Of a DNA stretch of 45,687 nt, positions 3,702-37,647 are shown piece by piece. The DNA lies in IMG/VR virus record IMGVR_UViG_3300033153_006718, positions 1 through 45,687 of that record; one strand, written 5' to 3'. Below the pieces are notes generated by a model that searched no databases, was not told where the DNA came from, and saw only the letters and a list, made by a program, of their open reading frames with translations. A program made the translations under genes and the position numbers. The DNA is from a virus. Positions within the stretch are counted from its first letter, which is position 1. The number at the start of each line of letters is the position of its first letter.

Positions 3702-4733
3702 ATGCTCGTCGAACTCGACACGGTCATTCAAGACGTTGCAGACATCCTCAACTGGGGCGATGGCGCTGGATGCGTAAACCCTGACAACAAAAAGAAAATA
3801 ATCAAAGGCCTGCGTAGACTGTTCGATCGGTTTTCGATCGACTCCCGCAAGCTTCCCGTTCTGCACCGCCTTGAATTCTGTCTGGATCGATGTTCAAACC
3901 GATACGCGATCGGCCCGAGCGGCGATCTGTGCGCCTGGGCTGTTCCGCATACCATTTATTACGCCGCATGGGTTCACAAGCCCGAGTGCGGGTGCGAAAC
4001 AAACATCTGCTGTGACGACCATCGCGGCTCTGTGTCCGGTGATTATTTTCTCGGCGATCAGAAAATCCGCGTCAACAACCAAGCGGCGGAATTTCTGAGA
4101 GACGCTCCTGACAGGGAGAACTACACGGCCCTACCGTCCGAGATGTGGTTTCAGCAGTCCGCCCCGAATGGGGAAATTGTGTTCGACTCCATCCCGCCGA
4201 AAGGAAGCAATCTGTTGATCCGGGCGACAATGCCGTTTGATGGTGATCTTCTGGAACAAGCGTGTTGTCCGAAAAAGCCATGCAAGAACCCTGAGTGGGA
4301 GTTCGAGGTGTTTACCTGCGGCTCCCCTGTTTCACGTGAAACAATGGACGACATTGTGCATGAGGCGCGGCATTGCTTCGATGGATGCGAAGACTGGTGT
4401 CTGAAAACGAAGGCAATGACTTGTGGTCCATGCCCGGTTGAAATAGAGGCGACAGTCACGGCCAACAGAATACCGCAAATTCACGCGCATTCAATAAATG
4501 CCGGTTGCCTGGAACTTCCGCAAGGATATTACTCGGCAATCGTGGCGATCCTGGCTTACGACATGGCCCCGTTTGCACACGTCAAGCGCACCCCCGCCGT
4601 GATCACGGATCGCGCTCTCGCGGTTAATCTCCTGCACCGGGACAACGAAAGGCAAATAGCGCAAGACGAAGAACTTGATCTGACCGTCCCATGGAACAAC
4701 AAGTCGGTCGTTCACGATCCTTGGTATGGCTGA
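3702..4733 (+). CDS. Head-to-tail adaptor, P22 gp4-like
   Basis: This 343-residue product is a probable tail accessory factor that stacks on the portal and stabilises packaged DNA. It sits just upstream of the gp10-like plug, the gp4 position. The middle carries YTALPSEMWF and GEIVFDSIPP, a layout recalled from gp4-type adaptors, and the C-terminal part is helical. It is larger than P22 gp4 because of a cysteine-rich insertion (about residues 195-260, with CCPKKPC and CGPCPVE). Its TGA overlaps the ATG of the next gene (TGATG), implying coupled translation. Confidence 0.65.
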   Translation: MLVELDTVIQDVADILNWGDGAGCVNPDNKKKIIKGLRRLFDRFSIDSRKLPVLHRLEFCLDRCSNRYAIGPSGDLCAWAVPHTIYYAAWVHKPECGCETNICCDDHRGSVSGDYFLGDQKIRVNNQAAEFLRDAPDRENYTALPSEMWFQQSAPNGEIVFDSIPPKGSNLLIRATMPFDGDLLEQACCPKKPCKNPEWEFEVFTCGSPVSRETMDDIVHEARHCFDGCEDWCLKTKAMTCGPCPVEIEATVTANRIPQIHAHSINAGCLELPQGYYSAIVAILAYDMAPFAHVKRTPAVITDRALAVNLLHRDNERQIAQDEELDLTVPWNNKSVVHDPWYG

Positions 4734-6253
4734 TGGCAAGGCTAGCCTTACCGTGGGCGTTCCAAACGTACTCAGGCCGGACTCGCGTAGCCGCCCTTGA
4801 GCGAGTAGTCAATCTACTGCCGGAGCGCAATCTGACCATACAGAGCAACGCCGGGGACGCGACTGCTTTTGTTTTGGTTGGCGCTCCTGGCAGTAGACCA
4901 TTCTGCAACCTGCCTGATGATGATTCGGACGTAGTACAACTCCACTCCGCCGGCGGACACCTGTTCGCATGGAGCCGTGAAGGGTTCTACGACGTTACGG
5001 GTGGCCGGTGCAGGCTTATCGAAAAGCGCAACAACGGCAAAATCATTCACGCCGCGCATGGAACCTACCTGACGGACTCCGGGAAGCGAGTGTTTCAGGT
5101 TTGGTGGTCTGATCGCAGGACGGGATACATCTACGATTTCGACAGCGGAAACGTGCAGAAGATCACAGATGATAGTTTCCTGCCTGTTTCATCAACCACT
5201 TATCTAGATGGGTATGCGATCTGGTCCCTGTCCGGAAGTGACGAATTCACATGGTCTGAGATAAAGGACTACGATGAATACAACGGACTCAATTTCGCCA
5301 CAGCAGAGGGGGCACCGGACAATCTACTTCGTGTTGTTGCTTTCGAGCATGAATTATGGATGTTCGGAGAAACCTCTACTGAGGTCTGGACAAATGTTGG
5401 CGATCAGGATGCGCCGTTTCAAAGGCTCGGTAATGCGTTTCTTGAGGTTGGATGCGCGAGCGGAAACACTGTCGCAAAACTGACCAGAGACCTGTATTGG
5501 ATTGGAAACGATCTGCGTGTCTACAGAACGGCGGCGAAGTCCTACAGGCCGATCCCGATCAGTCAGCACCAGAACGTAGAGCACGATCTGCATCGCTACT
5601 ACACGGATGGAGTGGACGACGCTTTCGCGTTCGGGCTGTCTATTGAGGGGCATGAACTTTATTTCCTGACTCTGCCAAAGGCGAAACGCACATGGGTATT
5701 CGATGAGGCGAATGGCGCATGGTCGGAATTTGCCACCATGGACAATTGCAAGCTTCCCCCGTGGTGTGATGATACCTGCGAGGGTCGCCCATACGGCGTC
5801 TATATGGCCACCTGCGGTGTTATGCACGAAGGACAGCCCATTATCGGCTCAGCAGGCGGAAGCGTCTACAGCCTCGATATGGGCTACTTCCTGCATGACG
5901 AACAGCCTATTATGAGGGAGGCGTCCACCTCCCCCATACAGCTTGCGACGGACGAGGTATCGTTTGAGCGCCTGGAGTTTGAGTTTCAAAACTCTTGCGG
6001 TTTCTTGGATTCGGATTGTGAACAGCCTGGCCCAAGAGATTCCGTGCTTCTTCACTTCACCGACTCGCAGGGTAAAAAATGGTGCGACGCCGGAAAACGA
6101 TGGATCGTGAAAGATTCTGAGAAATATCGCCCAACATGGGACGCTCTAGGCAGAACCAGAAGCCGGGCATTCAGATGGCGCACCTTCTACGACGGGCAGG
6201 TGGTATTCAGGCGCTCAATCTTCTATATGGGGCAGTCATTCGATGGCCGTTAA
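4733..6253 (+). CDS. Packaged-DNA stabilisation / tail hub protein, P22 gp10-like
   Basis: This 506-residue product is the probable tail tube plug that binds the adaptor ring. It is a beta-propeller-like protein with repeated blades ending in aromatic and charged residues, including RTGYIYDFDSGN, YWIGNDLRVYRTAAKSYRPI and YFLTLPKAKRTWVFDEANGA, typical of gp10 (Phage_stabilise) proteins. Length is close to P22 gp10. I chose ATG 4733 because it overlaps the gp4-like stop as TGATG; an in-frame ATG at 4691 lies inside that gene. The stop overlaps the next gene by 11 bases. Confidence 0.8.
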   Translation: MARLALPWAFQTYSGRTRVAALERVVNLLPERNLTIQSNAGDATAFVLVGAPGSRPFCNLPDDDSDVVQLHSAGGHLFAWSREGFYDVTGGRCRLIEKRNNGKIIHAAHGTYLTDSGKRVFQVWWSDRRTGYIYDFDSGNVQKITDDSFLPVSSTTYLDGYAIWSLSGSDEFTWSEIKDYDEYNGLNFATAEGAPDNLLRVVAFEHELWMFGETSTEVWTNVGDQDAPFQRLGNAFLEVGCASGNTVAKLTRDLYWIGNDLRVYRTAAKSYRPIPISQHQNVEHDLHRYYTDGVDDAFAFGLSIEGHELYFLTLPKAKRTWVFDEANGAWSEFATMDNCKLPPWCDDTCEGRPYGVYMATCGVMHEGQPIIGSAGGSVYSLDMGYFLHDEQPIMREASTSPIQLATDEVSFERLEFEFQNSCGFLDSDCEQPGPRDSVLLHFTDSQGKKWCDAGKRWIVKDSEKYRPTWDALGRTRSRAFRWRTFYDGQVVFRRSIFYMGQSFDGR

Positions 6254-14701: not shown

Positions 14702-14986
14702 ATGGCAAACCCTCTCGACGACAAACGCGGCCCGCGCGGATGGCAATTTGCCGTTCTTGGTCTAATTGCTGTTTCAGTTGGGGTTAAGCTCAGCGGGTGG
14801 TCCTGGCTGTTCGATGGGGCGATCACCGCCTCCCGCGCAATGATCGGGTGTCTGCTCTATTACGTTGCCTATCGGGTGGCGACTTACACCAGAACACATA
14901 ATTTAGCAAAAGGCGAATGCAGGGCCAGAGAGCTTGTTATGCTGGCTGGGTATGCCGCCATTATAGCCATGGCATTCCGGATGTGA
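14702..14986 (+). CDS. Holin candidate
   Basis: The 94-residue protein has two clear membrane helices (about residues 15-35 and 43-62) and a third near the C-terminus (MLAGYAAIIAMAF). Helices two and three are separated by a charged loop (RTHNLAKGECRARE). Size, topology and its place directly before the transglycosylase and spanins support a class I-type holin that times pore formation in the inner membrane. Its ATG is two bases after the previous stop, and its end overlaps the endolysin start (ATGTGA). Confidence 0.7.
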   Translation: MANPLDDKRGPRGWQFAVLGLIAVSVGVKLSGWSWLFDGAITASRAMIGCLLYYVAYRVATYTRTHNLAKGECRARELVMLAGYAAIIAMAFRM

Positions 14987-15624
14987 TCGCGACGTTTCTA
15001 TGCGCCTGGCTGGGGTGGTTCTGCCCGGTCCAGGTCGATACGCCCGCACACGTCGGCACGCCAACACCCGCTCCCGCCGATTATTCAAAGATCACAGCCG
15101 ATTGTCTACGCTACCGAACGCTGATCCAGGAGCAGGACCAACCCTCTCGGCTTGCGGCGCAAATGGAGGTCGAATCTTCGTGCAACCCGGTTGCCAGGAG
15201 CAGCGTAGCGCATGGGTTATACCAATTTGTACCAGCTACCGCAAAATGGCTAAGTCGCGGTGCGTGCCGCCTACTTGGGCCTGCGAGGCCGTACTCTCCT
15301 GAGTGGAGCATAAAATGCGCCGCAATCTATATGGGGATGCTCGAAAAGCAAACTGCCTATGCCAATTCAGAATGTGAAATTAGAACGCTGGCAGAGAGAT
15401 GTTACAATGGCGGGTGCCGTTGGGTAGAGCGAGAGCGTGACCGGGTGATTGCCACCCGTGGGGACTCTGGCAGCGCGGAAGAGATAGGGCTACAATGTGG
15501 AAATACTGGCAGATCAAAAGCGAACTGTAATGAGAATCTATCTTACCCAAAGAAAATATCCGACCGGCAACCGAAATACCGCGACTACGGCGGTGGAATT
15601 TGCCTAGATGTGGTGGACTCTTAA
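14983..15624 (+). CDS. Endolysin: lytic transglycosylase (SLT fold)
   Basis: The 213-residue enzyme should cleave the MurNAc-GlcNAc bond of peptidoglycan. Visible motifs, counted from GTG 14983, are the catalytic Glu in MEVESS (Glu64), GLYQFVPATA (78-87) and CYNGG (140-144), the usual SLT order. A hydrophobic N-terminus (IATFLCAWLGWF) could serve as signal or signal-anchor. GTG 14983 is preferred because it overlaps the holin stop; an in-frame ATG at 14917 would overlap the holin deeply. The last 60 residues are polar and of unknown role, and overlap the i-spanin start by 17 bases. Confidence 0.8.
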   Translation: MIATFLCAWLGWFCPVQVDTPAHVGTPTPAPADYSKITADCLRYRTLIQEQDQPSRLAAQMEVESSCNPVARSSVAHGLYQFVPATAKWLSRGACRLLGPARPYSPEWSIKCAAIYMGMLEKQTAYANSECEIRTLAERCYNGGCRWVERERDRVIATRGDSGSAEEIGLQCGNTGRSKANCNENLSYPKKISDRQPKYRDYGGGICLDVVDS

Positions 15625-16072
15625 AGCGTTCCTGCTCAAACCAGCGGCGATTATCCTCGCCCTAGTGGTGGCTGTGGCTGCCGGCGGAGGCGGGCTGAAG
15701 ATAGGCGGGTGGTCAAAGGAGCGGATCAAGGACGATCTCGCCGCCACGCTTGCCGAACTTGCCGCGCTTCAAGATGAATTCGACCAGGCGATGGTGCAAC
15801 GCAAACGCGTTTTAGACATCCTGGAAGAGCGTGAGGAACTCCTGCGTGGAGAACTAATGGCGGAGCGGGCGGACCGCAAAACAGCGCAACGGCTCGCTGC
15901 CAGACACCAGCGAATCAGCATTGAAATTGAAGAGCGAAAAAATGAAATACTCGCTAAACTGGAAGAAGTCAACGCGAAGGATAATGCTTGGGCTAGCACT
16001 CTCGTCCCAGATGCTTACCGCAAGTTGCGCAAGCCTGAAGCCCGGGGGGGCAAACCTTATTTTCCTGAATAA
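15608..16072 (+). CDS. i-spanin (Rz-like)
   Basis: The 154-residue inner-membrane spanin subunit has one N-terminal membrane helix (AAIILALVVAVAAGGGGL) followed by about 90 residues of charged coiled coil (DDLAATLAELAALQDEFDQA and onward), the classical Rz layout. It spans the periplasm and, with the overlapping o-spanin, fuses inner and outer membranes after peptidoglycan breakdown. The o-spanin gene starts inside it in another frame, a nested/overlapping Rz/Rz1 arrangement. Confidence 0.8.
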   Translation: MWWTLKAFLLKPAAIILALVVAVAAGGGGLKIGGWSKERIKDDLAATLAELAALQDEFDQAMVQRKRVLDILEEREELLRGELMAERADRKTAQRLAARHQRISIEIEERKNEILAKLEEVNAKDNAWASTLVPDAYRKLRKPEARGGKPYFPE

Positions 16073-16235: not shown

Positions 16236-16420
16236 ATATACAGAACGCCTCGACCCTTCTGGTTGCCGATGTGGTTGTTTTTGTGGTTATACTGATATGC
16301 ACACTAACCGGATTATTCTTTTTTGGTATTACTGGGAGTTTTCTTGGGCTGGCCATAGGGACAGCGCTAATAGTTGAAATCGCGTATTCGATTATGAAAA
16401 GAAAAGGGTGTGTAAAATGA
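16232..16420 (+). CDS. Small two-helix membrane protein
   Basis: The 62-residue protein has two hydrophobic segments (about residues 10-30 and 33-52) and a basic C-terminus (MKRKGCVK), so the tail is probably cytoplasmic. It overlaps the o-spanin stop (ATGA) and has AGAGGAAG upstream. A second holin/antiholin or superinfection-exclusion role is possible; I recognise no family. It separates the o-spanin gene from the stranded o-spanin end, so it may be a recent insertion. Confidence 0.55.
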   Translation: MNIQNASTLLVADVVVFVVILICTLTGLFFFGITGSFLGLAIGTALIVEIAYSIMKRKGCVK

Positions 16421-16526
16421 AAATTCCGACCTCTTCAATCAGCTGCTTCTGACCGAGGGGGCGCTCGATCAGTGCTCAACGCAGGTTGAGCTATTGAGGG
16501 AATACTATGGCGAGTGCTGGGAATGA
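16416..16526 (+). pseudogene. Stranded 3' end of a second o-spanin
   Basis: A 36-codon open stretch without a usual start codon ends at TGA 16524-16526. It aligns without gaps to the C-terminus of the o-spanin: NSDLFNQLLLTEGALDQC here against NADMFRLLVLTEKALLQC there, with 15 identities in 26 positions by eye. It lies just after the small membrane gene. This is best read as the displaced 3' end of an older o-spanin gene, left after recombination brought in the present 3' end together with the membrane gene. Confidence 0.6.
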
Positions 16527-16577
16527 AAAAACCCGCCAGGGGCCTGGGCCTTTATGAGGTGTTCCAGGCGTGGCGGG
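16526..16577 (-). terminator. Rho-independent terminator of the structured RNA
   Basis: On the minus strand a two-part stem (CCCGCCA with TGGCGGG, and inside it GCCTGG with CCAGGC) is followed at once by six T. It lies exactly at the end of the plus-strand lysis genes. Direction is set by the T-run, which is absent on the plus-strand side. Confidence 0.85.
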
Positions 16578-17094
16578 CGATGTCTGCATACCCCTTTAAT
16601 CGGGGAGCGTCCTTGCGGCAACATCCGACCGCAGGGCTTTGCTGGGCAACAATCCGAGCCCGGCTCCGGAGAGGATTTATTGACAGGTCCGTGGCCTGCC
16701 AACCTCGTATTGCGGGACTTCTCTGCGCGCCTCTACTGAGGTTTTCCGGGACCGTTTCTCCGGCGTAGATGTGAGCTGCAGGCAGGGTATGTCCCCCTGT
16801 CCTCGTGGTCTGGCCGGTATTAGCCGCCAGACCGCCCCCTGGGGTTTCGCCCAGGTTGGGAGCCGAAAGGCTAACGGCTCCGTCACTCACGTCTCTTGAC
16901 GCGCACCCCTGCGGTGGGGATTCTCCCTTGCCGCCGGTAGCTATTTCCGGCAGCAAACCCGTTTCCGGGTGCCAGCGCGATTTATTAGACCACGCTGCCG
17001 TTGACTACTCGCCCGTTTCCGGGCTTCTTTGTGTCAGTTGCCTCTCCCGATCCCAACGGCGACAGGAGAGCCTGGGGTGTCCTCCAGGTTGACG
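16526..17094 (-). ncRNA. Large structured non-coding RNA (class unknown)
   Basis: About 570 bases between convergent genes hold no convincing reading frame but read as a chain of stable hairpins on the minus strand. Among them are two 5-bp stems capped by GAAA (17024-17011 and 16970-16957), an 8-bp stem at 16954-16930, a 7-bp stem at 16881-16859, an 8-bp stem at 16833-16807, an 8-bp stem extended by a second helix at 16706-16671, a 7-bp stem with a bulged G at 16670-16653 and a 5-bp stem at 16633-16614. The segment 17060-17054 in a hairpin loop can pair with 17003-16997, a possible pseudoknot. A promoter lies upstream and a U-tract terminator downstream. Size and density recall ROOL/GOLLD-class phage RNAs, but I cannot match a consensus. 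Confidence 0.7.
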
Positions 17095-17100
17095 GTACAA

Positions 17101-17128
17101 ATTATACAGATGTTTAGTCATATGTCTA
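17101..17128 (-). promoter_or_regulatory. Sigma70-type promoter for the structured RNA
   Basis: On the minus strand TAGACA (-35, 17128-17123) and a perfect TATAAT (-10, 17106-17101) are 16 bases apart. The expected start is near 17094. No ribosome site or open frame follows, so the transcript is predicted to be non-coding. Confidence 0.75.
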
Positions 17129-17130
17129 TT

Positions 17131-17146
17131 CCCGCAAGCTTGCGGG
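17131..17146. repeat. Perfect 16-base palindrome at the end of the accessory operon
   Basis: CCCGCAAGCTTGCGGG lies directly after the stop of the beta-propeller gene and just upstream of the RNA promoter. As RNA it forms an 8-bp stem region, but no T-run follows on the minus strand, so it may mark a 3' end or slow polymerase rather than terminate alone. It could also be a protein-binding site that affects the adjacent promoter. Confidence 0.5.
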
Positions 17147-18520
17147 TCACGCTTTTCTCCCGTACCGTTTCGCCGGATCAGGAACTCGGCGCTTTATCGC
17201 CGGGCCGATGTGGATGATTGTGTTCGCCGGGTAGGCGCTTCCTGGCTTGTGCGTCCGCCACACTTGTCGATCGTTCAGTTCTTTCGAGTGTTTCCCGTCG
17301 TAGGCTTTTTCACCGTTCACGAATAGCTCTCCGACGTGCCATTTCCGGGGGAGGATTATTGCTAAATTACCGCCGTATCCGCTTCCGGCGCTAACCGGTT
17401 TCCAGATCATTTCTCCGTCCTTGGTTAGCGCCCGAACATCTTTCGGTACATCAACCTTTTCACTCCCCACCAGATAAGCACAGCCGCGCTTCTGGTCAGT
17501 CCTGGTCACAACCAGAACCTTGTCGCCGGCAATCTCGATTCCACGAATCTCGGCTTCGGGGAAAGTTGCGAGGGTTTCAAATTTACCGCCATATCTCGCC
17601 ATCAACGGAGCGCCGGAACCAGGATCACGCCAACCGCGATTAGGGCCGAATAGGAGTTGGCTGTTGTTGTAGAATCTACATACTGGAATGTAATCAAAAT
17701 CATTGAAATGGCCTTGCTGCTTTACTGTTACGCCGTCCGTGCATTTGTACATCGAGGCCGAGTTATCGTGGTGCTTGCCCCCTCTGTAGTTGTCAGACCC
17801 GCACAACGCCATTTCCTTTCCGTCTGGCCTCACAGCGCCGGACATGAACCGGTGCCCCTTAATCTTGTTCTTCCATGACCAACTTCTCAGATCTTTGCTT
17901 TCGTACCAGCCAGCCGAATCGGAGGATCGCCGATAGCCTGGAATAATGCACATCCCTTTGAATTCAAAGGGCCACTTGACATAAGTGTCCTTATCGAAAG
18001 TTTTGACTGTGCCGATGCCTTTGACGAAGATTTCTCCGCCGCCGATGACTACGAGTTTACCGAACACCACGCCCATTCCGAATGCACCGCCGTGAAGGCC
18101 TGGCCGTAGGGTTGCGTAGGGGTTGAAATCATACCAGGGTGTTTTTGCTCGACACACAAGCCCTTTATTTTCGCAGCTGGCATAGATGTGGCCTTCGTGC
18201 TCAATCATATCGAACACAGATTCGCCCGTGTTGAGAGAGGCAACGCTGCCCCTCCCGATTTTAATAATGTGCGAGGTTGCCTTAGGATGGGAATAGGTTC
18301 CGGCCAACATCGTCCCGTCCGGCAGGACTAATGCTGAGAAGAAACTTTCAGGAGCAACCTTCGCCACCCGCTTAACAGGGAACCCGGTGATGTTTCCACC
18401 CCCTGGAACGGGAACCGGAACAGGGGTCGGTCCTGGATTAGATTTTTTCTTTCTCAACAATAAATATGCGATCGCGGCGGTCATAACGGCTCCTGGTATC
18501 AGCAAGTTGAAATCGATCAT
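17147..18520 (-). CDS. Membrane-anchored beta-propeller-like protein
   Basis: The 457-residue product starts at ATG 18520, overlapping the upstream stop (ATGA). An N-terminal hydrophobic segment (LLIPGAVMTAAIAYLLL) is followed by RKKK and a Pro-rich linker (PGPTPVPVPVPGGG). Then comes a region of about 300 residues with repeated short beta motifs such as LVLPDGTMLAGTYS, FGKLVVIGGGEIFV, GAVRPDGKEMALCGSD and GDKVLVVTRTD, suggesting a propeller. The C-terminal 90 residues look like a separate small domain. The charge after the helix favours an N-out, C-in topology, though a virion location cannot be excluded. No catalytic residues recognised. It is the last gene of the accessory operon. Confidence 0.65.
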   Translation of the reverse strand: MIDFNLLIPGAVMTAAIAYLLLRKKKSNPGPTPVPVPVPGGGNITGFPVKRVAKVAPESFFSALVLPDGTMLAGTYSHPKATSHIIKIGRGSVASLNTGESVFDMIEHEGHIYASCENKGLVCRAKTPWYDFNPYATLRPGLHGGAFGMGVVFGKLVVIGGGEIFVKGIGTVKTFDKDTYVKWPFEFKGMCIIPGYRRSSDSAGWYESKDLRSWSWKNKIKGHRFMSGAVRPDGKEMALCGSDNYRGGKHHDNSASMYKCTDGVTVKQQGHFNDFDYIPVCRFYNNSQLLFGPNRGWRDPGSGAPLMARYGGKFETLATFPEAEIRGIEIAGDKVLVVTRTDQKRGCAYLVGSEKVDVPKDVRALTKDGEMIWKPVSAGSGYGGNLAIILPRKWHVGELFVNGEKAYDGKHSKELNDRQVWRTHKPGSAYPANTIIHIGPAIKRRVPDPAKRYGRKA

Positions 18521-18696
18521 TTTTCTATTTTTCCATAGTTGCAATCGCTGCACCCAGGACATTTTTGCCCACCTGGGTATACTCGCCATCCTGAACAGCG
18601 TTTCTGCCCGGATCGAACCAAAAGCCAATGGGCGATCTTGGTCTTACCAAAGGCTTTATCAAACCCTCTGGCCATACATACAAGAATATGGTACAT
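18517..18696 (-). CDS. Small cysteine-rich protein (59 aa)
   Basis: This frame starts at ATG 18696 nine bases after AGG in AGAGGTAAG and ends in a TGA overlapping the next ATG, the pattern used across this operon. The product (from MYHILVCMARGFDKAF) ends with a CSGW, CPGC, SDC cluster that could bind zinc. A competing frame, 18525-18725, has 66 codons but begins with TTG and no ribosome site. I prefer the ATG frame for its signals, but both are compatible with codon use. Confidence 0.45.
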   Translation of the reverse strand: MYHILVCMARGFDKAFGKTKIAHWLLVRSGQKRCSGWRVYPGGQKCPGCSDCNYGKIEK

Positions 18697-18725
18697 CGTT
18701 GCTTACCTCTTGCCTGACAAATCAA

Positions 18726-18938
18726 TCATTTTTTTCTATGTTCAGAACATTTGTTTTGATGACCATACGGGCTCGTCACGAATAACGACAGCGTGTTTGG
18801 AGCGAGACATTCAGGACACCCAATAATGTCGCAATCCGCACCCCATGTATTTGGGGCTTTGAGCATGTCAGCCGAGGATACTATTGCATTGCATTCTTCG
18901 CACCCTAGTATGCGTGGCTTTTGTTTAACTTTTAACAT
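18726..18938 (-). CDS. Small zinc-ribbon-like protein
   Basis: The 70-residue product starts at ATG 18938, inside the end of the previous gene and after GAGGG. It has two Cys pairs, CEEC near residue 15 and CPEC near residue 42, spaced as in zinc ribbons, and a basic C-terminus. Such proteins often bind nucleic acid or protein partners. The family is unknown to me. Confidence 0.6.
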   Translation of the reverse strand: MLKVKQKPRILGCEECNAIVSSADMLKAPNTWGADCDIIGCPECLAPNTLSLFVTSPYGHQNKCSEHRKK

Positions 18939-19426
18939 ATCCAACGACCCTCAATAAACCTGCAGTTTCTTAAATAATCAATCTCCGATTGCATGGCTCC
19001 AAGCCTTTTCGCAACTCTGATCTGTAAATCCTGAGCCTCCCGCTCTCGCTCGCCGGCTGGCTGATCGCGGTTTTTGCGCCACTGAATGATATGATATGCG
19101 TCGTGGATCAGCGTAGAGGCATCGTATGCCGTTGAGGCTGGAGCGCCCATTACCCAGTAAAATATTCTACGCTCTCTATCAACTCCTGAGATTCCTGTTT
19201 TGGGGTGTGGCACTGCTCTAACTTCACGGAGATTTAGCACGATCTCATATAAGTCAGGAGCCGATTTCAGCAAATCAATAGCGCGGTTAAACCTAGATCG
19301 ATCCGTATCGTTGCCGGAGAACCTAATGGTTTTTGGCCTTCGCTCTTTTTTCCCCCTGTTCCGATTCAAAATAACAACAACTATCGTAGCTACAATAGCC
19401 AGCCCGGCAAAGGCGAAATCAATCAT
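18932..19426 (-). CDS. Membrane-anchored zincin-like protein (HDxxH)
   Basis: The 164-residue protein begins with a membrane helix (FAFAGLAIVATIVVVIL) followed by RNRGKKERR, again suggesting a cytoplasmic body. A central helix contains STLIHDAYHIIQWR, with His108 and His112 spaced like the HExxH metal site but Asp109 in the usual Glu place. Several Glu (residues 126-130) follow and could supply the third ligand. A metallopeptidase-like or inactive zincin fold is inferred. Start ATG 19426 overlaps the protease stop (ATGA). Confidence 0.55.
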   Translation of the reverse strand: MIDFAFAGLAIVATIVVVILNRNRGKKERRPKTIRFSGNDTDRSRFNRAIDLLKSAPDLYEIVLNLREVRAVPHPKTGISGVDRERRIFYWVMGAPASTAYDASTLIHDAYHIIQWRKNRDQPAGEREREAQDLQIRVAKRLGAMQSEIDYLRNCRFIEGRWIC

Positions 19427-20085
19427 ATCTTTTTATGCCTCTTCATAAAAAACACTGCCTCACCATGCTCTTCCATTAATTTCTCAAGGTCTGAGAAATG
19501 AATTTTGCACGTCCCATTTTTACCCCAATGCGGACCCCAGCTATTGGTCAGGGTTACGTATTCCTTTTTGATGTTGATCGCATTGGCCAGGATCGCGTGT
19601 CCACCTTTGACCTGGCCTTGCGGGAAAATAAACCCGTCTTTGTTAGGGCGGACCATGCCGCTCCACCAATTCACGCCGAGTACCGCTGGCCCGTTATGCC
19701 CGATACCGTTAAGCAGGTCGTTAAACGTGAACGCCCACCTGTATTCATCGAACCACCCCAGTTTGTGGGCGATCTTAACACCAGCTAGAACGCTTGTCCC
19801 TTCATAAAATGGTCTCGCGCTTGGGTATGCCCCGCCAGGCCAGGGGTCGATCTTTTGCGCCTCCCAGTATATTTCCCTGAGCGCGTAGATCATCGTCATT
19901 TTCTCTACCTCGGAGGGCCGGGCGATCAGATCATGCGCGATAGCAGCCGCGACACAACTTCCGTCGTCTCCCTGGTTGAGCAGTTTGTTTACTCTCCAGG
20001 TGTACGACCGTATCGGTTTCTCTATCGCAAGCATGGGAAATTTTCTGCTGCGCTCGTCGAATTCCCTTAGTCTGCCGTATTTCAT
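19423..20085 (-). CDS. Papain-like cysteine peptidase (C1A-type)
   Basis: This 220-residue enzyme shows the papain signature in order: Gln38 and Cys44 in NQGDDGSCVAAAIAHD, His163 in GGHAILANA and Asn181 in NSWGPHWGKNGTCKI. The length is that of a bare catalytic domain, with no propeptide or signal peptide, so it should act in the cytoplasm unless carried by a partner. It has the strongest ribosome site of the operon (GGGAGG). Targets may be host proteins or the neighbouring phage proteins. Papain-like peptidases are uncommon in phage genomes; the assignment itself is firm from the motifs. Confidence 0.85.
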   Translation of the reverse strand: MKYGRLREFDERSRKFPMLAIEKPIRSYTWRVNKLLNQGDDGSCVAAAIAHDLIARPSEVEKMTMIYALREIYWEAQKIDPWPGGAYPSARPFYEGTSVLAGVKIAHKLGWFDEYRWAFTFNDLLNGIGHNGPAVLGVNWWSGMVRPNKDGFIFPQGQVKGGHAILANAINIKKEYVTLTNSWGPHWGKNGTCKIHFSDLEKLMEEHGEAVFFMKRHKKI

Positions 20086-20090
20086 GATCC

Positions 20091-20918
20091 TTACCTCCCA
20101 TTCCCCGTTGCATCTGCTCCTGCGTCCATCCCTGCACGACCAAGAGATTTGGCTTCTTTACTGTAGGAGTTTATGTGATATTCAGACAACACGACTTTCT
20201 TTTTAGTGTACGCTATAGACACCTTCACCCGCGCTTTTAGCGTATCAACATCTTCCGGCTTGTCAGGTTCATTAGTTTGGAGAAAATAATAATCAGCAAG
20301 CTTCCAGAACCCGGATTCATTATGCCCCATGGGGGTTAAATGAACCCCTTTCGGCTTGCTGGTGTTTTGGTTCAGCGCCGCGTAAATAGCCTTCATCTGC
20401 TCAAAACCCATATGCTCATTTGCTTCGAGCGCACCAACCCAACCGATGGCGTATTGGTCAAACCGTTTAACAAGCAGATCTGTCAATCCCCCCAGCACTT
20501 CCGGGCTTTTGCCGCTGATCACGGGGGAGTCGTCGGCGAATAGCCAAAAGACAGGATAAAGGCCCATCGAAATCATTTTTTCGATTTCGCTTTCCCACCT
20601 GGCCATTCTGGGCTCATATAACCTCGCCCCCCAATCGTCGCTGTCAAAAGGAAGAAGGCACGGGTTGATAAACTTCGATCTATAGTCCCCCTGATTTGTG
20701 AGGTAGACATATATCGTATCATCACCGTTTGCCACACACTCACGCAATATTTTCTCTCGCGTCGCATTGGATACTTGCGGTGAGAAATAGGTATGAGAAA
20801 ATAAATTCTTCCCCTCCATTAAAAACGACGCCTTGTGTCCGATGAACCGACGCTCGGCCTCTCCTGTTGATACACCCTGCTCTTTGTTGAGCAGGAGGTA
20901 CGAGATTGCAGCACTCAT
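20091..20918 (-). CDS. Glycoside-hydrolase-like TIM-barrel protein (clan GH-A pattern)
   Basis: The 275-residue protein begins with a short hydrophobic stretch (AAISYLLL), too short for certain membrane insertion. The body has TIM-barrel-like strands: YPVFWLFADDSP, then IGWVGALEANEHMG and later VVLSEYHINSY. A Glu after Asn (ANEH) and a second Glu (SEYH) match the acid/base and nucleophile positions of clan GH-A enzymes. Substrate unknown; cell-envelope glycans are a natural guess. It starts overlapping the previous stop and ends just before the protease ribosome site. Confidence 0.5.
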   Translation of the reverse strand: MSAAISYLLLNKEQGVSTGEAERRFIGHKASFLMEGKNLFSHTYFSPQVSNATREKILRECVANGDDTIYVYLTNQGDYRSKFINPCLLPFDSDDWGARLYEPRMARWESEIEKMISMGLYPVFWLFADDSPVISGKSPEVLGGLTDLLVKRFDQYAIGWVGALEANEHMGFEQMKAIYAALNQNTSKPKGVHLTPMGHNESGFWKLADYYFLQTNEPDKPEDVDTLKARVKVSIAYTKKKVVLSEYHINSYSKEAKSLGRAGMDAGADATGNGR

Positions 20919-21115
20919 TTAGCTTTCTCCAACAACACGCATTTATAGAGCGTGTCATAAGCTGGATGGCCTGCTGAAACTGGAATGCCTCCAGCTTCCT
21001 CGCATTCCAGGAACGAGTGTGGTTTGCGGTCCCCAGGCGGATACCAAACAAGCGCAGGAATTCCAACTGCCGCAAATATCAGGCCGGCAAACACTATCTG
21101 TTGAGGCTTGTTCAT
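20915..21115 (-). CDS. Small membrane-anchored protein
   Basis: The 66-residue product has an N-terminal membrane helix (QIVFAGLIFAAVGIPALVW) then a short domain with Cys at about 38 and 59 (FLECEEAGG and LYKCVLL). It overlaps both neighbours by ATGA junctions. The two Cys suggest a disulfide if exposed outside the cytoplasm. No family recognised. Confidence 0.55.
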   Translation of the reverse strand: MNKPQQIVFAGLIFAAVGIPALVWYPPGDRKPHSFLECEEAGGIPVSAGHPAYDTLYKCVLLEKAK

Positions 21116-21273
21116 TTTTTAGTTTCCTTCACAAGATAACCCTCTTTCTTGTTGTCAAATATCACTTTCCCGGAGCTATCCACGCACATATAGTGCGCTG
21201 TCACTTGAGATGGCTCCACGGTAGGTGGAATTTCAGACAGGAGGAAGCACGAGTAGAGTAGTGCTTGAATCAC
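21112..21273 (-). CDS. Very small hypothetical protein (53 aa)
   Basis: The frame starts at GTG 21273, overlapping the upstream stop as GTGA, and ends in a TGA overlapping the next ATG. It fills what would otherwise be the only gap in the operon. The product has a hydrophobic start (IQALLYSCFLL) that could be a lipoprotein-like or signal segment with Cys9, then a compact tail with YMCVDSSGKVIFD. It looks like a companion of the next gene, which also carries a short Cys-containing tail. Confidence 0.55.
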   Translation of the reverse strand: MIQALLYSCFLLSEIPPTVEPSQVTAHYMCVDSSGKVIFDNKKEGYLVKETKK

Positions 21274-21503
21274 CACTTTGCCCCGTTGACAAAATTCGTT
21301 CCGTCGCGCTCTTCATACCACACATTTACCAGGCCGTTAGACGGTCGAGCCTGTAGCAGCATTGCGAAAATTTCTCGGTAATCAGAAATTCTATTAGACA
21401 TGACAAACCTCTCTTTTACGACCCCTTTGTCCAGCGTAAAGCTAGACCCGCCTGCGTAGGTATGGATTTCCACCAAAATACCAGTATATTGTTTCTCGCT
21501 CAT
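21270..21503 (-). CDS. Hypothetical small protein
   Basis: The 77-residue soluble product begins at ATG 21503, overlapping the upstream TGA (ATGA). It reads as a small alpha/beta protein with strands GILVEIHTYAGG and LVNVWYEERDG around a helix (DYREIFAMLLQA). No motif recognised. Coupled translation makes it part of the accessory operon. Confidence 0.5.
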   Translation of the reverse strand: MSEKQYTGILVEIHTYAGGSSFTLDKGVVKERFVMSNRISDYREIFAMLLQARPSNGLVNVWYEERDGTNFVNGAKW

Positions 21504-22492
21504 GTCGTTTTATTTAACTCCGATAGTTTGTGAAAAAACTCAGCCCTTCCTATCCCGGAAGGGGTGGCTGAATCCCCGCTATTCGGAGCGTGCCCTGACG
21601 GTATTAACATCTGCGATGGACTCCATATCCAGTACCCGGAACCCGACTCATAAGTACCGCGCTCCTCAATCCCCGCTATCATCTTATCAACCGTTCCGAA
21701 CCGTTCCGGCCAGATTCCGCACATGACGTAGCCATACTCAGCCTCTTCTTTTATATTTGCCCGACTCTTTTTGTCCCAATCATCATAGCATCTTTCCTCA
21801 AGAAACCATGATATTTTACCAAGGACAGCAAAAGCATCGCGCACCCAGTCAGCACGATGGGGGAACATGCCGAAATTTTTACGCTTTAGTTTTTTAAGAG
21901 ATCGGCGGACTTCTCTAGAAAACTGCGTCTTTTCTGCTTTAGAATAAAACCCTGACTTTTGATGGAACCCATCTCTACCTGGGCTGTATTGCTCCATGTC
22001 GAACATCAATCCTGCTTGATATAGGTTTGCCAGCCTCACGGCGGAATCAAATTTATACCGATAATATTCCAGGTTCTTCAGGTCAGGTAGGTATGGAGTT
22101 TTGCTGTGTCTAAATTGCCTTGGCAGTTTCTTGTGATGCCGGGAAATCGACGGGCACAAAATCAACTTGACCCGTGAGTCATTCTTGTACCGCCTAAGAA
22201 TGGCTTGCGCCTCCGGCCACCTACCCCAGTGCCCGACGGTCCCGGTTTTATGTGGGCCATCCAGATCGGTAGGCATATCCTGTACAGCGACGAACAGCGT
22301 GTTGATCCCCGCCCCGATAAATCGTTCAATGTCGGCAGCGTTTTGTCCGGTCCAATTTGGAACCCATAACCCCTTAATAGGGATGGTGTCTCGATAGGAT
22401 GGGTTGTCAGATTTCCCGAGCGCCTTCTTTGCCGCGAATGCAGCGCCGCCCAACCCGAGCAGGATCAGTGGCCACCAGTCTGGTATGTTCAT
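21500..22492 (-). CDS. Membrane-anchored glycosidase-like TIM-barrel protein
   Basis: The 330-residue protein starts at ATG 22492 (overlapping the upstream TGA). A hydrophobic N-terminal segment (WWPLILLGLGGAAFAA) is followed by KKALGK. The body reads as a TIM barrel: IKGLWVPNW, INTLFVAVQDMP, VKLILCPS, AGLMFDMEQYS, NFGMFPHRADW, GYVMCGIWPER and SGYWIWSP. The DMEQ motif on a central strand is a likely acidic active site, as in glycoside hydrolases. Substrate unknown. It shares the anchor style of the beta-propeller and zincin-like proteins. Confidence 0.55.
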   Translation of the reverse strand: MNIPDWWPLILLGLGGAAFAAKKALGKSDNPSYRDTIPIKGLWVPNWTGQNAADIERFIGAGINTLFVAVQDMPTDLDGPHKTGTVGHWGRWPEAQAILRRYKNDSRVKLILCPSISRHHKKLPRQFRHSKTPYLPDLKNLEYYRYKFDSAVRLANLYQAGLMFDMEQYSPGRDGFHQKSGFYSKAEKTQFSREVRRSLKKLKRKNFGMFPHRADWVRDAFAVLGKISWFLEERCYDDWDKKSRANIKEEAEYGYVMCGIWPERFGTVDKMIAGIEERGTYESGSGYWIWSPSQMLIPSGHAPNSGDSATPSGIGRAEFFHKLSELNKTT

Positions 22493-22860
22493 GCCATTTC
22501 TCTCCATTCAAGATTAGCAATTGTGGTTGCAAGTTCAGCAGCCTTTTGCCCGTCAAAAAGAGCCTTTCGAGCAAATTCCTCATATAAACCGTTGAGGCAT
22601 GTGTGGCCGGCTTCTTCGTTTTTGTGGATCGGGCACAACAAGCAATGATCAATGAGTGGATTGGGTTCGCTGTTCTCCTTTCGCTCCAGGCTTTCCTGAC
22701 ACGCGAAGCAAAGAGCATCGACGTTTTCTATGCCCCCTCCATTAACTACCCATCTGGGCCATTTGCATTTGTGTCCGTAGCGCCCACGATGAAACTCACT
22801 CGCTATCCACAGCCACATTTCCCTGTGAAGGGACGCTCTTGACTGTGTGCTTTCAGTCAT
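22489..22860 (-). CDS. Cysteine-rich zinc-binding-like protein
   Basis: The 123-residue product starts at ATG 22860, inside the end of the preceding gene. The middle carries CFACQE, then CLLCPIH and HTCLNG, a Cys/His set that could bind one or two zinc ions. A basic, Trp-rich segment precedes it (HRGRYGHKCKWPRWVV). A regulatory or protein-binding role is possible. I do not recognise a family. Confidence 0.5.
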   Translation of the reverse strand: MTESTQSRASLHREMWLWIASEFHRGRYGHKCKWPRWVVNGGGIENVDALCFACQESLERKENSEPNPLIDHCLLCPIHKNEEAGHTCLNGLYEEFARKALFDGQKAAELATTIANLEWREMA

Positions 22861-23047
22861 CTTCCCGACATGCCATGGGCGATGCGGAAGCAGAGTCTGC
22901 GCTGCTTTTTGCGGCGGCAACTTCGCGCCAGGCGTTACGAGTATCGCCAGACAATTCACGCCACTCCAACAACAGGCCTGTAGGCATGTCTAATGCGCTG
23001 CGGTACACGCCAAATAACCGGGCCGCTAATGCTTCGTTCGCTCCCAT
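22853..23047 (-). CDS. Small hypothetical protein, first gene of the accessory operon
   Basis: The 64-residue product starts at ATG 23047 after AGGAGAGTAAA, a strong ribosome site. It is helical (EALAARLFGVYRSALD, then LLEWRELSGDTRNAWREVAA). The pattern of a Trp-containing helix near the C-terminus is common among short phage proteins of unknown role. It lies directly downstream of the structured leader. Confidence 0.5.
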   Translation of the reverse strand: MGANEALAARLFGVYRSALDMPTGLLLEWRELSGDTRNAWREVAAAKSSADSASASPMACREDD

Positions 23048-27244: not shown

Positions 27245-27417
27245 TTTTCATCCTCTTCTTTCTGCGGCCATGAGCCTATCTCGTGCACAAATAACCCGCA
27301 TTCAACATGCTCGCCTTCGTGGTCTTTCTCTCTTGTGCACCGATACAGCGAGACGGATGGTTTGATGGCCCCGCAACACCCGCCAGACACACAAAAACCG
27401 CATTCGCCCCTGCTCAT
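27241..27417 (-). CDS. Small Cys/His-rich protein (58 aa)
   Basis: The frame starts at ATG 27417, nine bases after GAGG, and ends in a TGA overlapping the next ATG. The product contains CGFC, GGCCGA, YRCTREKDHEGEHVECG, a Cys/His set consistent with zinc binding and typical of short phage early proteins. The codons are protein-like throughout. Its start region shares 18 identical bases with the start region at 36860-36877. Confidence 0.6.
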   Translation of the reverse strand: MSRGECGFCVSGGCCGAIKPSVSLYRCTREKDHEGEHVECGLFVHEIGSWPQKEEDEK

Positions 27418-27599
27418 TTCTGCATCCTCAGTTTCGGCCCAACCGCTGCCGTTGTTGTGTCCGCTATGGACATGATTAGCGCTCGCCGTCCCGTCGCGGA
27501 CAGCGGGCGGTGCTTGCGCAGAACAGCGCCGGTGGGTGATGTCTTGCGGGCCATCCGGCGGTTGGTCCTGATCGGGTGGTGGAAGTCGTTAGGAGTCAT
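27414..27599 (-). CDS. Small basic hypothetical protein
   Basis: The 61-residue basic product starts at ATG 27599 after GAGGAACTGAAAA and its TGA overlaps the next ATG. It contains RTNRRMARKTSPTGAVLRKH. No family recognised. The start region shares 17 identical bases with that of the gene at 35188-35823. Confidence 0.45.
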   Translation of the reverse strand: MTPNDFHHPIRTNRRMARKTSPTGAVLRKHRPLSATGRRALIMSIADTTTAAVGPKLRMQK

Positions 27600-27706
27600 T
27601 TTTCAGTTCCTCTTTTCAGGTTTCCCGGAACCGCCGGGTGTTTTTTTTGAAACGGCATCGGCAGCGTTTCTGCTTCCGGTGGTCTTTGTTGCTCGTAGAT
27701 GGCCAC
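27596..27706 (-). CDS. Possible very small leading gene (36 aa)
   Basis: A frame from GTG 27706 next to GGAGA ends in a TGA overlapping the following ATG, matching the operon style. The short product is polar (MAIYEQQRPPEAETLPMPFQ). Other frames here are also open for 25-40 codons, so this call rests mainly on the stop/start overlap. The 27707-27946 stretch upstream is probably leader; I see no confident gene in it. Confidence 0.3.
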   Translation of the reverse strand: MAIYEQQRPPEAETLPMPFQKKHPAVPGNLKRGTEK

Positions 27707-27929
27707 TCTCCGCTACCGCCGACCCTTATGGGTGCATTTTACGGCGGGCTGCAATACCAATCACTCGCTGCCCACAAACTATTGCTTCCGGCTCGTTTTA
27801 GACTTATCCGTTTTCGCGGAGCGTTCAGCACACAGGTCTGAAAACTTTTCTCGCCGGTTGCTCATTGCTTGGCGCGTCAACATCACTGGCCACGTTCGAG
27901 TTCGTGTCTGCCGCCGACGCCGCTTCAAA

Positions 27930-27975
27930 AAAATTACCGAGGGGTAATGTTAAGGCAACCTTGTCACCTTGTCAA
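27930..27975 (-). promoter_or_regulatory. Leftward early promoter with overlapping dyads
   Basis: On the minus strand TTGACA (27975-27970) and TAACAT (27952-27947) are 17 bases apart. The spacer holds AAGG-TTG-CCTT (27962-27952). A second dyad, ATTACC-cctc-GGTAAT (27948-27933), covers the end of the -10 and the start region and is followed by a T-run. Because the start would fall inside this dyad, I read it as an operator rather than a terminator. It should drive the recombination operon. Confidence 0.65.
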
Positions 27976-28047
27976 GCGTTTTTTGTAATTATTTTATTCC
28001 AACCGCCAGTGTATAGCAGTATATCGTACACAGCGGGGAAAAACAAC

Positions 28048-28076
28048 TTGACACCACGGCAAGGTTTCCTTTACCA
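28048..28076 (+). promoter_or_regulatory. Rightward early promoter sharing the operator
   Basis: TTGACA (28048-28053) is followed by a 17-base spacer and a weak -10 (TTACCA, 28071-28076). The spacer contains GGCAAGGTTTCCTT, nearly identical to GACAAGGTTGCCTT in the leftward promoter, with the same AAGG-N3-CCTT dyad (28061-28071). It precedes the replication operon. The poor -10 suggests activation or weak basal use. Confidence 0.55.
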
Positions 28077-28141
28077 TCCGGCTGTGGATATTCTAAAATG
28101 AGCCCGAAGCAGGCTGGATGACGACGCCAGAGGAAGCAACA

Positions 28142-30427: not shown

Positions 30428-30675
30428 CCGATAAAACAGCAACCACCCAAAAACCGATAGGACGCCCACGAATCCACCAGGACCAAGCGGCGTACAGACT
30501 TGAGTGGAAGCGCAAGGATCGTCTAAGAAAACACGCTGAGAAGCAGCGCCTTGGTGCTCTGCGGCTCAAGGCTGAGCGGGAAGAAAAAGAGCGTCGGCAA
30601 GCGGCGTTTGATGAGTTTCTAATGCGGCCGGTGGATATTGCGAATAGGGCTCCGCTACCGATCTGGGGTGAATGA
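30424..30675 (+). CDS. Basic AT-hook-like small protein
   Basis: The 83-residue product contains GRPRIHQD, an AT-hook-like motif, followed by a strongly basic helix (YRLEWKRKDRLRKHAEKQR). DNA or RNA binding is likely. Start overlaps the zinc-finger gene stop (ATGA) and its end overlaps the methyltransferase start by 8 bases. Confidence 0.55.
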   Translation: MTDKTATTQKPIGRPRIHQDQAAYRLEWKRKDRLRKHAEKQRLGALRLKAEREEKERRQAAFDEFLMRPVDIANRAPLPIWGE

Positions 30676-31201
30676 GCTGGCTCTTTTCGCGGGCGCTGGC
30701 GGAGGAATACTGGGCGGACAATTGCTTGGATGGCGAACCGTGTGCGGCGTTGAATGTGATGGAGACGCCGCGGCCGTTCTTGCGCAACGGCAAAACGATG
30801 GATTTCTCAAGCCTTTCCCGGTTTGGAGTGACGTCCGCACGTTTGACGGACGACCGTGGCAGGGAATTGTTGACGTGGTTTCTGGTGGGTTTCCCTGCCA
30901 AGACATTTCAGCGGCCGGGAAAGGCGCCGGCATCGAAGGGGGGCGGTCGGGACTCTGGTCGGAAATGGCGCGGATCATTGGCGAAGTACGACCACGATTC
31001 GCGTTTGTGGAAAACTCACCAATACTCACTTCTCGGGGGCTTGGACGAGTTCTCGGCGACCTGGCCGAGATGGGGTTCGATGCGAAATGGGGAGTTGTAT
31101 CTACTGCCGACGCCATCTGGTCTGCTGGAAATCCGAGCGTTGATCAACTCCGAGAGCGCATTTGGATTGTCGCAACGAATGCCGACTCCGCTGGAGAATG
31201 A
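30668..31201 (+). CDS. C5 DNA cytosine methyltransferase, catalytic part (motifs I-VIII)
   Basis: From GTG 30668 the frame encodes 177 residues with motif I FAGAGGGILG (7-16), motif II VECD, motif IV GFPCQ with catalytic Cys77, motif VI ENS (115-117) and motif VIII RERIWIVA (162-169). It stops at TGA 31199-31201 before any target-recognition region or motifs IX-X, so alone it is about half a methyltransferase. Those missing parts appear in the overlapping frame that runs on to 31640. At the stop, a +1 slip (GAA TGA C to AAT GAC) would join the two. The enzyme would make 5-methylcytosine, for example against host restriction. Confidence 0.75.
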   Translation: MNELALFAGAGGGILGGQLLGWRTVCGVECDGDAAAVLAQRQNDGFLKPFPVWSDVRTFDGRPWQGIVDVVSGGFPCQDISAAGKGAGIEGGRSGLWSEMARIIGEVRPRFAFVENSPILTSRGLGRVLGDLAEMGFDAKWGVVSTADAIWSAGNPSVDQLRERIWIVATNADSAGE

Positions 31202-31640
31202 CGCACGGAAACGCGGGGATTTCGATTCGAGCAATCCAAGAAACGGGTTGCCTGCCGCGGTCAAAAGGTTCCCGACACCGACAGCATCCGACGGATCGCG
31301 TGGCGGGGTGATGACAGAGGGCATGACTGGTCAGGGTCTGGTGCAGGTGGTGAACACTATCGAGCGCGTCTCTGCTAGGAGGCCGAGTTACAGGCCGAGT
31401 TACAGGCTGAATCCAGACTGGACAGAATGGTTGATGGGCTGGCCGATCGGGTGGACGTCTCTAGAGCCGTTGAGGGAATTGCGAGTTGAGGGCTGGGGCA
31501 ATGAACCATTGGACGTTCCCAGGGTGGCAAAAGGGGCGCCGGAGTGGGTGGCACGGATCAGGGCAATTGGTAACGGCCAAGTCCCGGCGTGCGTGGCGCT
31601 GGCGTGGCAGATATTAACCGATACGGAGACTATAAAATGA
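30672..31640 (+). CDS. Overlapping frame: overprinted N-terminus plus methyltransferase C-terminus
   Basis: This 322-residue frame starts at ATG 30672 and covers the whole catalytic half in another phase. Residues 1-175 (FSSLSRFGVTSARL, SLAKYDHDSRLWKT, FSATWPRWGSMRNGE) are the alternative reading of motifs IV-VIII, yet resemble a phage protein family I recall. Residues 176-322 have the recurring FPTPTASDGS, LNPDWTEWLMGWPIGWTSL and IRAIGNGQVPACVALAWQ, the last being C5 methyltransferase motif X. So its second half is the missing C-terminus of the enzyme. It may be expressed alone, by frameshifting, or from an internal start such as the ATG near 31178. Confidence 0.6.
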   Translation: MSWLFSRALAEEYWADNCLDGEPCAALNVMETPRPFLRNGKTMDFSSLSRFGVTSARLTDDRGRELLTWFLVGFPAKTFQRPGKAPASKGGGRDSGRKWRGSLAKYDHDSRLWKTHQYSLLGGLDEFSATWPRWGSMRNGELYLLPTPSGLLEIRALINSESAFGLSQRMPTPLENDARKRGDFDSSNPRNGLPAAVKRFPTPTASDGSRGGVMTEGMTGQGLVQVVNTIERVSARRPSYRPSYRLNPDWTEWLMGWPIGWTSLEPLRELRVEGWGNEPLDVPRVAKGAPEWVARIRAIGNGQVPACVALAWQILTDTETIK

Positions 31641-36864: not shown

Positions 36865-36879
36865 TTCTGCATCCTCATT

Positions 36880-37119
36880 TTATCGGTTATTTGCTTCCAG
36901 TTTTTCGCCCACGAAGAAACCAGGGACCGGGTTGGCCGTTGGAAAGAACAGGCGTTGTTCTATTACAGTGCGGCCAGTATCAACCTATATCGCGTTATAG
37001 TCATTGACATAGGTCAAGGCCTGAGGAATAAGACCATCAAACGTTTCGATGGAATGATAAGCAACGCTGATGAAACGATCAGGCAATCGATAGGGTTTGC
37101 ACAAAAGGGTTTCGTTCAT
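36880..37119 (-). pseudogene. Small gene interrupted by an in-frame TAG
   Basis: From ATG 37119 one frame runs 79 sense codons to a TAA at 36882-36880, broken only by TAG at codon 45 (36987-36985). Both halves look coding: RLPDRFISVAYHSIETFDGL before and DTGRTVIEQRLFFPTANPVP after. It ends 15 bases before the next gene, as an operon member would. A single C-to-T change from CAG would explain it. TAG is used as an ordinary stop elsewhere here, so nonsense mutation, assembly error or suppression are all possible. Confidence 0.5.
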
Positions 37120-37575
37120 GCGCCGCAGCAGCGCGCTATAGACAAGGTGTGGCGCGACAGCGGCCGGTGGTGGGCAGGTATGGGCAGGGGGGGAGGTAGG
37201 GCCGGTCAGAGGCCAGGGAGGGGGTGGCCGGTGGTGGTGTCGCGGCCAGGAGAGCAACCCCCCTTTTGCTTTTTGCGCGCCATGGTAACTGTAACTATTA
37301 GCCCCCCTCCCACACAGCCCAGCCGCCAACAAAGACCAGTCTTACCCTTTTTTTACAACGGTTATGTAAAATATCGACCAAAACGGACTGTTCCTCACAT
37401 ACCCGCATACCAGGCGTTACCAAGCGCTGCCAACAGTTCCGGGTAGCAATCGTGTAACTGTTACAAGGTTTTCCGGAGGGGCGTGAGGTAACACGTCAAA
37501 AAACCGCCAGTCTTCTCACACCAGAAGGAAAAGCAGGGTTTATCCATACATCACCACGCTCTGCTCTTAAAGCGT
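37120..37575. other. Gene-free region with a G-rich tract
   Basis: I find no supported gene. From 37167 to 37250 the plus strand is very G-rich with several runs of three or more G, capable in principle of forming a G-quadruplex. The flanks hold poly-C/T and A/T stretches. Long frames on either strand here are Pro/Arg-rich artefacts of composition. The region must contain the start of the minus-strand operon, but I see no strong promoter. Confidence 0.35.
37453..37465. promoter_or_regulatory. Perfect 13-base dyad, possible operator
   Basis: TGTAACTGTTACA is a perfect palindrome about 110 bases upstream of a rightward promoter. A related half-site pair, GTAACTGTAAC, occurs near 37284. The XRE-type regulator encoded further along the same operon (39028-39285) is a candidate ligand. 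Confidence 0.4.
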
Positions 37576-37605
37576 TTGACAAGGAATTGTTGGCGAGTAC
37601 ATAAT
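37576..37605 (+). promoter_or_regulatory. Sigma70-type promoter of the 37.6-39.3 kb operon
   Basis: TTGACA (37576-37581) and CATAAT (37600-37605) are 18 bases apart; TACATA at 37598 with 16 bases is the alternative -10. The first gene starts 43 bases downstream with a good ribosome site. Confidence 0.65.
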
Positions 37606-37647
37606 AGGCTTCGTTAAAGTTACCCATAGAGCGGAATGGAGGGGGTT

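Follow-up and report, generated by a model that had tools for sequence, protein, structure and literature searches.

What does a phage keep in a stretch of several hundred bases that holds no gene but appears to fold? The DNA analysed here, referred to as the window, is a virus record of 45,687 bases with a podovirus-like gene set. This includes genes for a major head protein (551-1891, phrog_283), a head-closure protein (4691-6253, phrog_578) and a terminase (42825-44354), the closest annotated relatives of which are 23-28% identical. Near the terminase gene, a leucine-rich-repeat protein (PF12799) with near-identical tandem repeats is encoded at 40383-41870 (+). The lysis genes encode a transglycosylase-type endolysin (14917-15624) and an Rz-like spanin (15608-16072), and the last of the rightward gene-like ORFs before the region of interest stops at 16420. 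Leftward accessory genes fill 17147-22959, leaving a gap of 726 bases (16421-17146) without a gene-like ORF in a hand-picked gene set. By the same gene set, 27245-28117 and 36865-37635 are two further large gene-free stretches. A sequence-only reading had placed a large non-coding RNA on the minus strand of the gap, between convergent lysis and accessory genes. This description holds for the lysis genes but not for the accessory genes, with which the RNA would be co-directional and of which it would lie just downstream.

The genes around the gap and further along the window have features of their own. The leftward accessory proteins encoded at 17147, 18932 and 21500 carry an apparent membrane anchor near the N-terminus, and the accessory gene at 19423-20085 (-) encodes a papain-like cysteine peptidase (phrog_16701, PF00112). 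Many IMG/VR contigs, as well as actinobacterial phages, encode relatives of this peptidase that share 39-59% identity with it. At 30638-31640 (+), a C5 cytosine methylase is apparently split across two reading frames: the N-terminal Pfam match lies in a 187-aa ORF, and an overlapping 322-aa ORF in the other frame has the apparent C-terminal part at its end, reflecting either a frameshift or an assembly error.

Codon usage was scored for all ORFs within 16505-17092, and the scores (-0.07 to -0.37) are those of non-coding sequence, relative to 0.10 to 0.27 for 20 of the 21 reference genes and 0.01 for the remaining one. The earlier statement that some 570 bases here contain no gene is therefore upheld, all internal ORFs being non-coding by this measure, and a conserved protein-coding frame across the region is disfavoured by codon usage rather than by comparison. 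The folding of the region was then set against dinucleotide-preserving shuffles, which keep composition. The minus strand of 16520-17110 (591 nt) folds at -270.3 kcal/mol (z -4.86), a value that 0 of 100 shuffles equalled; the plus strand of the same 591 nt gives a weaker yet significant z of -3.43, since it is the mirror image of the minus strand. For the predicted transcript itself, 16526-17097 (-), 572 nt in length, the energy is -264.9 kcal/mol against -226 +/- 6 kcal/mol in 120 shuffles, i.e., about six standard deviations below the shuffle mean, with the plus strand nearly as stable (-259.6). At least a dozen minus-strand hairpins had been claimed, and 19 are predicted, compared to 11.8 +/- 2.1 after shuffling, a count reached in none of the 120 shuffles. 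The overall z for the minus-strand region is about -5 to -6.

This excess of structure stands out within the window as a whole. In a scan of 608 windows of 150 bases on both strands, using a 7-window running mean of z, the lowest mean on either strand falls in the RNA region, and on the minus strand it is -2.60, versus -1.69 at the next unrelated place. The second strongest local structure signal of the record, in a single 150-base window, is at 20851-21000 (z -5.6 on the minus strand and -3.65 on the plus strand). The other two large gene-free gaps, used as controls, gave z of -1.6 to -3.4 versus -5.6 for the RNA region, and none of several coding regions used as fold controls came near -5.6. 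Given the shuffle, record-wide scan, control-region and codon results, neither coding nor composition is likely to account for the structure. The GC content is 62% in the region and 52% record-wide.

The borders of the structured segment are marked by transcription signals. As the sequence-only reading had noted, TAGACA-16-TATAAT lies upstream on the minus strand (17101-17128), a sigma-70-like promoter with 11 of 12 consensus matches. Sites with at least 11 of 12 matches and a spacing of 16-18 occur twice in the whole record, counting both strands, and one of the two is directly before the structured segment. The other match, TTGACA-18-CATAAT at 37576 (+), is near the end of the gene-free stretch 36865-37635. 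From the position of the -10 box, the RNA would start at about 17094-17097. Downstream, the stem followed by six U that had been described is present as a putative intrinsic terminator (16526-16578, minus strand), in which a GC-rich 8+6-bp stem (16578-16531) runs into a U run ending at 16526. GNRA tetraloops number two on the minus strand, relative to 0.33 in shuffles (3 of 120 reach two), and zero on the plus strand. Because the promoter, the terminator and the GAAA tetraloops all point the same way, we take the minus strand as the one that would be transcribed. Between the promoter and the 493-aa leftward gene, a perfect 16-base palindrome, CCCGCAAGCTTGCGGG, can be read directly at 17131-17146, immediately after the stop codon of that gene and just before the -35 box. 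A U run does not come after it, and it may form the hairpin end of the transcript of the 493-aa gene or be the site of a regulator.

By computation, then, the region combines structure beyond chance, no coding signal, and a promoter and terminator placed at its two ends. A significantly stable fold and an own promoter and terminator, here present as consensus matches, are traits of free-standing structured non-coding phage RNAs. Sequence statistics, namely the fold z, the hairpin count, the record-wide scan and codon usage, thus give good support to a large structured non-coding RNA at 16526-17097 (-), some 570 nt long and with its own promoter and terminator.

In the predicted fold, most of the longer helices have pair probabilities above 0.94. 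The 5' domain (17088-16928) is a series of hairpins, and 17092-16926 folded alone gives a z of -5.2. Its first hairpin, CCUGG-AGGACACC-CCAGG (17071-17088), has a second copy further along the minus strand, CCUGGG-CGAAAC-CCCAGG (16838-16855), the two forming a 21-nt repeat that is 86% identical. The first copy is followed by a hairpin with the stem UCUCCUG/CGGGAGA (17043-17069, stem probability 0.99). By inspection, its loop GCCGUUG (17060-17054) is complementary to CAACGGC (17003-16997), and the two may form a candidate 7-bp pseudoknot; the possible pseudoknot of the sequence-only reading therefore has the complementarity that it needs, but within 570 nt chance is expected to yield a complementarity this long. 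The two GAAA-capped stems were found as described, with CCCG-GAAA-CGGG at 17024-17011 and 16970-16957 on the minus strand only, in the hairpins GCCCG-GAAA-CGGGC (17011-17024, probability 1.0) and ACCCG-GAAA-CGGGU (16957-16970, probability 0.97). A 9-bp hairpin with the loop CUAAUAA (16973-16997, probability 0.99) lies between them, and the domain ends in a 10-bp hairpin of the pair-probability fold (16928-16956), the loop of which, AAAUAGCUA, includes UAGCUA (16943-16938), a self-complementary stretch that could form a symmetric kissing loop.

A long-range 9-bp helix (probability 0.96), in which the 5' strand ACCGCAGGG (16915-16907) pairs with the 3' strand CCCUGCGGU (16636-16628), encloses the second domain, some 290 nt with at least six hairpins, after which come a small stem and the terminator. 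In addition to the second copy of the repeated hairpin, the minus strand of this domain contains a 7-bp hairpin of the pair-probability fold with the loop UUAGCCUUU (16859-16881), an 8-bp hairpin GGUCUGGC/GCCAGACC with the loop region GGCUAAUACCG (16807-16833, probability 0.94), the hairpin AGG.CAGGG/CCCUG.CCU (16780-16803, probability 0.97-0.98) and an 8-bp hairpin UUGGCAGG/CCUGUCAA (16680-16702, probability 0.94). UUAGCC (16874-16869) is complementary to GGCUAA (16825-16820), and a loop-loop pairing of the two is possible by inspection. Palindromic loops appear in 15 of 120 shuffles, and UAGCUA alone is not significant. Since a palindromic loop is not unusual in shuffles, the loop contacts remain proposals, and the pseudoknot, the UAGCUA palindrome and the UUAGCC/GGCUAA kissing interaction are each within chance expectation.

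An RNA of this size and build invites comparison with the known giants. ROOL (Rumen-Originating, Ornate, Large) is a phage and prophage RNA that forms a homo-octameric nanocage, and many of its loci adjoin tRNA islands, which are not strictly required. GOLLD forms a homo-14-mer nanocage with symmetric kissing loops, and OLE (Ornate Large Extremophilic RNA) is about 600 nt long. The homo-oligomers of ROOL, GOLLD and OLE use A-minor contacts and kissing loops, some of these loops being symmetric and palindromic (PMC12286853), and OLE occurs mostly in Bacillota cells (PMC12054373). Kinship with ROOL or GOLLD, which the size class had suggested, was not borne out: the Rfam 15 covariance models, including those of OLE, HEARO and further RNAs from nuclease-associated elements, gave no match at the gathering score anywhere in the record. 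With permissive filters, cmscan of the RNA region gave no local match to ROOL, GOLLD, OLE, ARRPOF or similar up to E = 5; the sole Rfam listing up to that value was the model of a mycobacterial sRNA, which is unrelated and scored 15.1 bits versus a gathering score of 45. By the covariance-model membership test, the predicted RNA would not belong to ROOL, GOLLD or OLE.

The likenesses are those of kind. As predicted from its sequence, the RNA shares with ROOL the size class, a phage-borne and free-standing organisation, many hairpins, the potential for a pseudoknot and possibly an RNA-only form, but it differs in having neither a covariance-model match nor homologues in the records searched nor a nearby tRNA island, tRNA genes having been found nowhere in the 45,687-base record. 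With GOLLD it shares the phage-borne ornate RNA and a candidate palindromic apical loop resembling the symmetric kissing loops of that RNA (UAGCUA being within chance), whereas the covariance-model match and tRNA are again missing and the sequence is unrelated as far as tested. With OLE it has in common the size of about 600 nt and the ornate fold, but not a covariance-model match, and OLE belongs mostly to Bacillota cells rather than to podovirus-like phages. We consider it improbable that the RNA is a highly divergent ROOL, GOLLD, OLE, ARRPOF or similar RNA beyond covariance-model recognition. The size range, phage location and ornate fold would suit such an origin, as would several symmetric-loop features known from these RNAs (PMC12286853), but even the permissive cmscan gave no local match to those families.

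Relatives of the region were sought by sequence, by neighbouring genes and by motif. Comparison by blastn with phage, plasmid and E. coli records gave no credible match; a 34-nt match of low E to a Sphingobium plasmid falls on codons for the catalytic motif of an alpha/beta hydrolase and was rejected as chance. In IMG/VR, no phage relatives were found with the terminase, the major head protein or the neighbouring 493-aa protein as queries. A profile of the head-closure protein found 80 loci (28-35% identity), none of which carry the RNA, and the papain-like peptidase gene found 20 loci, which have neither the RNA nor the other accessory genes. An exact 21-mer scan of IMG/VR found none. Motif scans returned 12 matches to the repeated hairpin, all unrelated phage hairpins, and 53 matches to the tandem GAAA hairpins, none homologous (L136 and L174 were inspected and rejected). 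Among unrelated IMG/VR contigs, the hairpin AACCTGGGGGAAACCCCAGG or close variants are shared (L114, L118, L123; L113, L115, L117, L119-L122), immediately ahead of a gene start in one contig group, and inside what looks like coding sequence in another.

Of two motif scans of GTDB genomes, one gave none and the other eight matches, none of which scored with a one-sequence covariance model (R1). This model, built on the 5' domain (16926-17092), is weak, so that its negatives mean little. In about 1.8 Mb of loci it found the record itself and five weak matches of at most 18.9 bits, all in pattern-selected loci, and in 767 whole bacterial genomes (369 + 398) it found nothing. Among the records searched, the phage appears to be an orphan, with structural genes about 30% identical to their relatives. 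A scan for antisense targets within the phage gave nothing striking, the longest exact complement outside the region being 13 nt.

The main rival to a free-standing RNA is that the leftward operon ends in a long, structured 3' region. Hairpins in such an untranslated or insulating segment between convergent units would stabilise the leftward mRNA, block read-through and pair with late transcripts that do read through, without any trans-acting RNA. The position of the region suits this explanation, since it closely follows the leftward accessory genes in their own direction and faces the lysis genes, and leftward transcription could continue into the region past the palindrome that follows the 493-aa gene without a U run. 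Nevertheless, 570 bases and 19 hairpins far exceed what an insulator needs, a strong promoter stands between the 493-aa gene and the structure, and GNRA-capped stems on one strand together with long-range pairing suggest a folded RNA; we hold this explanation to be unlikely. Somewhat less probable again is that a decayed gene or GC-rich DNA of foreign origin makes up the region, in which case the folding would be compositional chance and the promoter a chance match. Its GC content, 10 points above that of the record, its lack of detected relatives and its location in one of three large gene-free stretches are compatible with such an origin, but the composition-keeping shuffles argue against it, both in hairpin count and in folding energy, and a gain of hairpins is not expected in a decayed gene.

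Action at the level of DNA, with folded single strands serving as a site for packaging, replication or recombination, would be consistent with the foldability of both strands. We judge it very unlikely, since the promoter, the terminator and the GNRA loops are features of an RNA, the terminase gene is about 18 kb off, across the contig end, and among the genes adjoining the region no recombinase was recognised. That the RNA acts as a sponge for a CsrA/RsmA-type host protein, which would bind GGA, is barely credible: 19 GGA triplets in 572 nt are a slight excess over the 14.0 +/- 2.6 of shuffles, AGGA (3 versus 3.1) and ANGGA (4 versus 3.2) are not enriched, and the sponge was rejected since GGA is not sufficiently above background.

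The explanation that we favour, and consider about evenly poised between right and wrong, is that 16526-17097 (-) gives rise to a non-coding RNA, some 570 nt long, that is free-standing and highly structured and acts as a ROOL/GOLLD-type scaffold. Leftward transcription of this RNA by the host RNA polymerase would begin at a strong sigma-70-type promoter of its own and stop at its own intrinsic terminator. The RNA would be compact, multidomain and abundant during infection, held together by GAAA tetraloop (A-minor) contacts, the long-range helix and the pseudoknot, and it would perhaps self-associate via its palindromic and complementary loops. This mode of action is proposed by analogy with the way ROOL and GOLLD work, membership in either family not being implied. 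Going by its sequence, the RNA may represent an undescribed class. A bolder version is doubtful, namely that an undescribed class of large, ornate phage RNA, some 570 nt long and without sequence kinship to ROOL, GOLLD or OLE, self-assembles by loop-loop contacts into an RNA-only particle in infection.

To our knowledge, the large ornate RNAs known from bacteria are very few. Should the RNA described here be transcribed and fold as predicted, it would be a new class within this small kind, although a class cannot be established from a single sequence. If the explanation is right, a phage RNA that is in the same size class but unrelated would mean that phages have recurrently adopted such RNAs as a strategy, and it would provide an independent system in which the function of large ornate RNAs can be tested. 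It would also mean that large RNA classes with few relatives evade alignment-based discovery.
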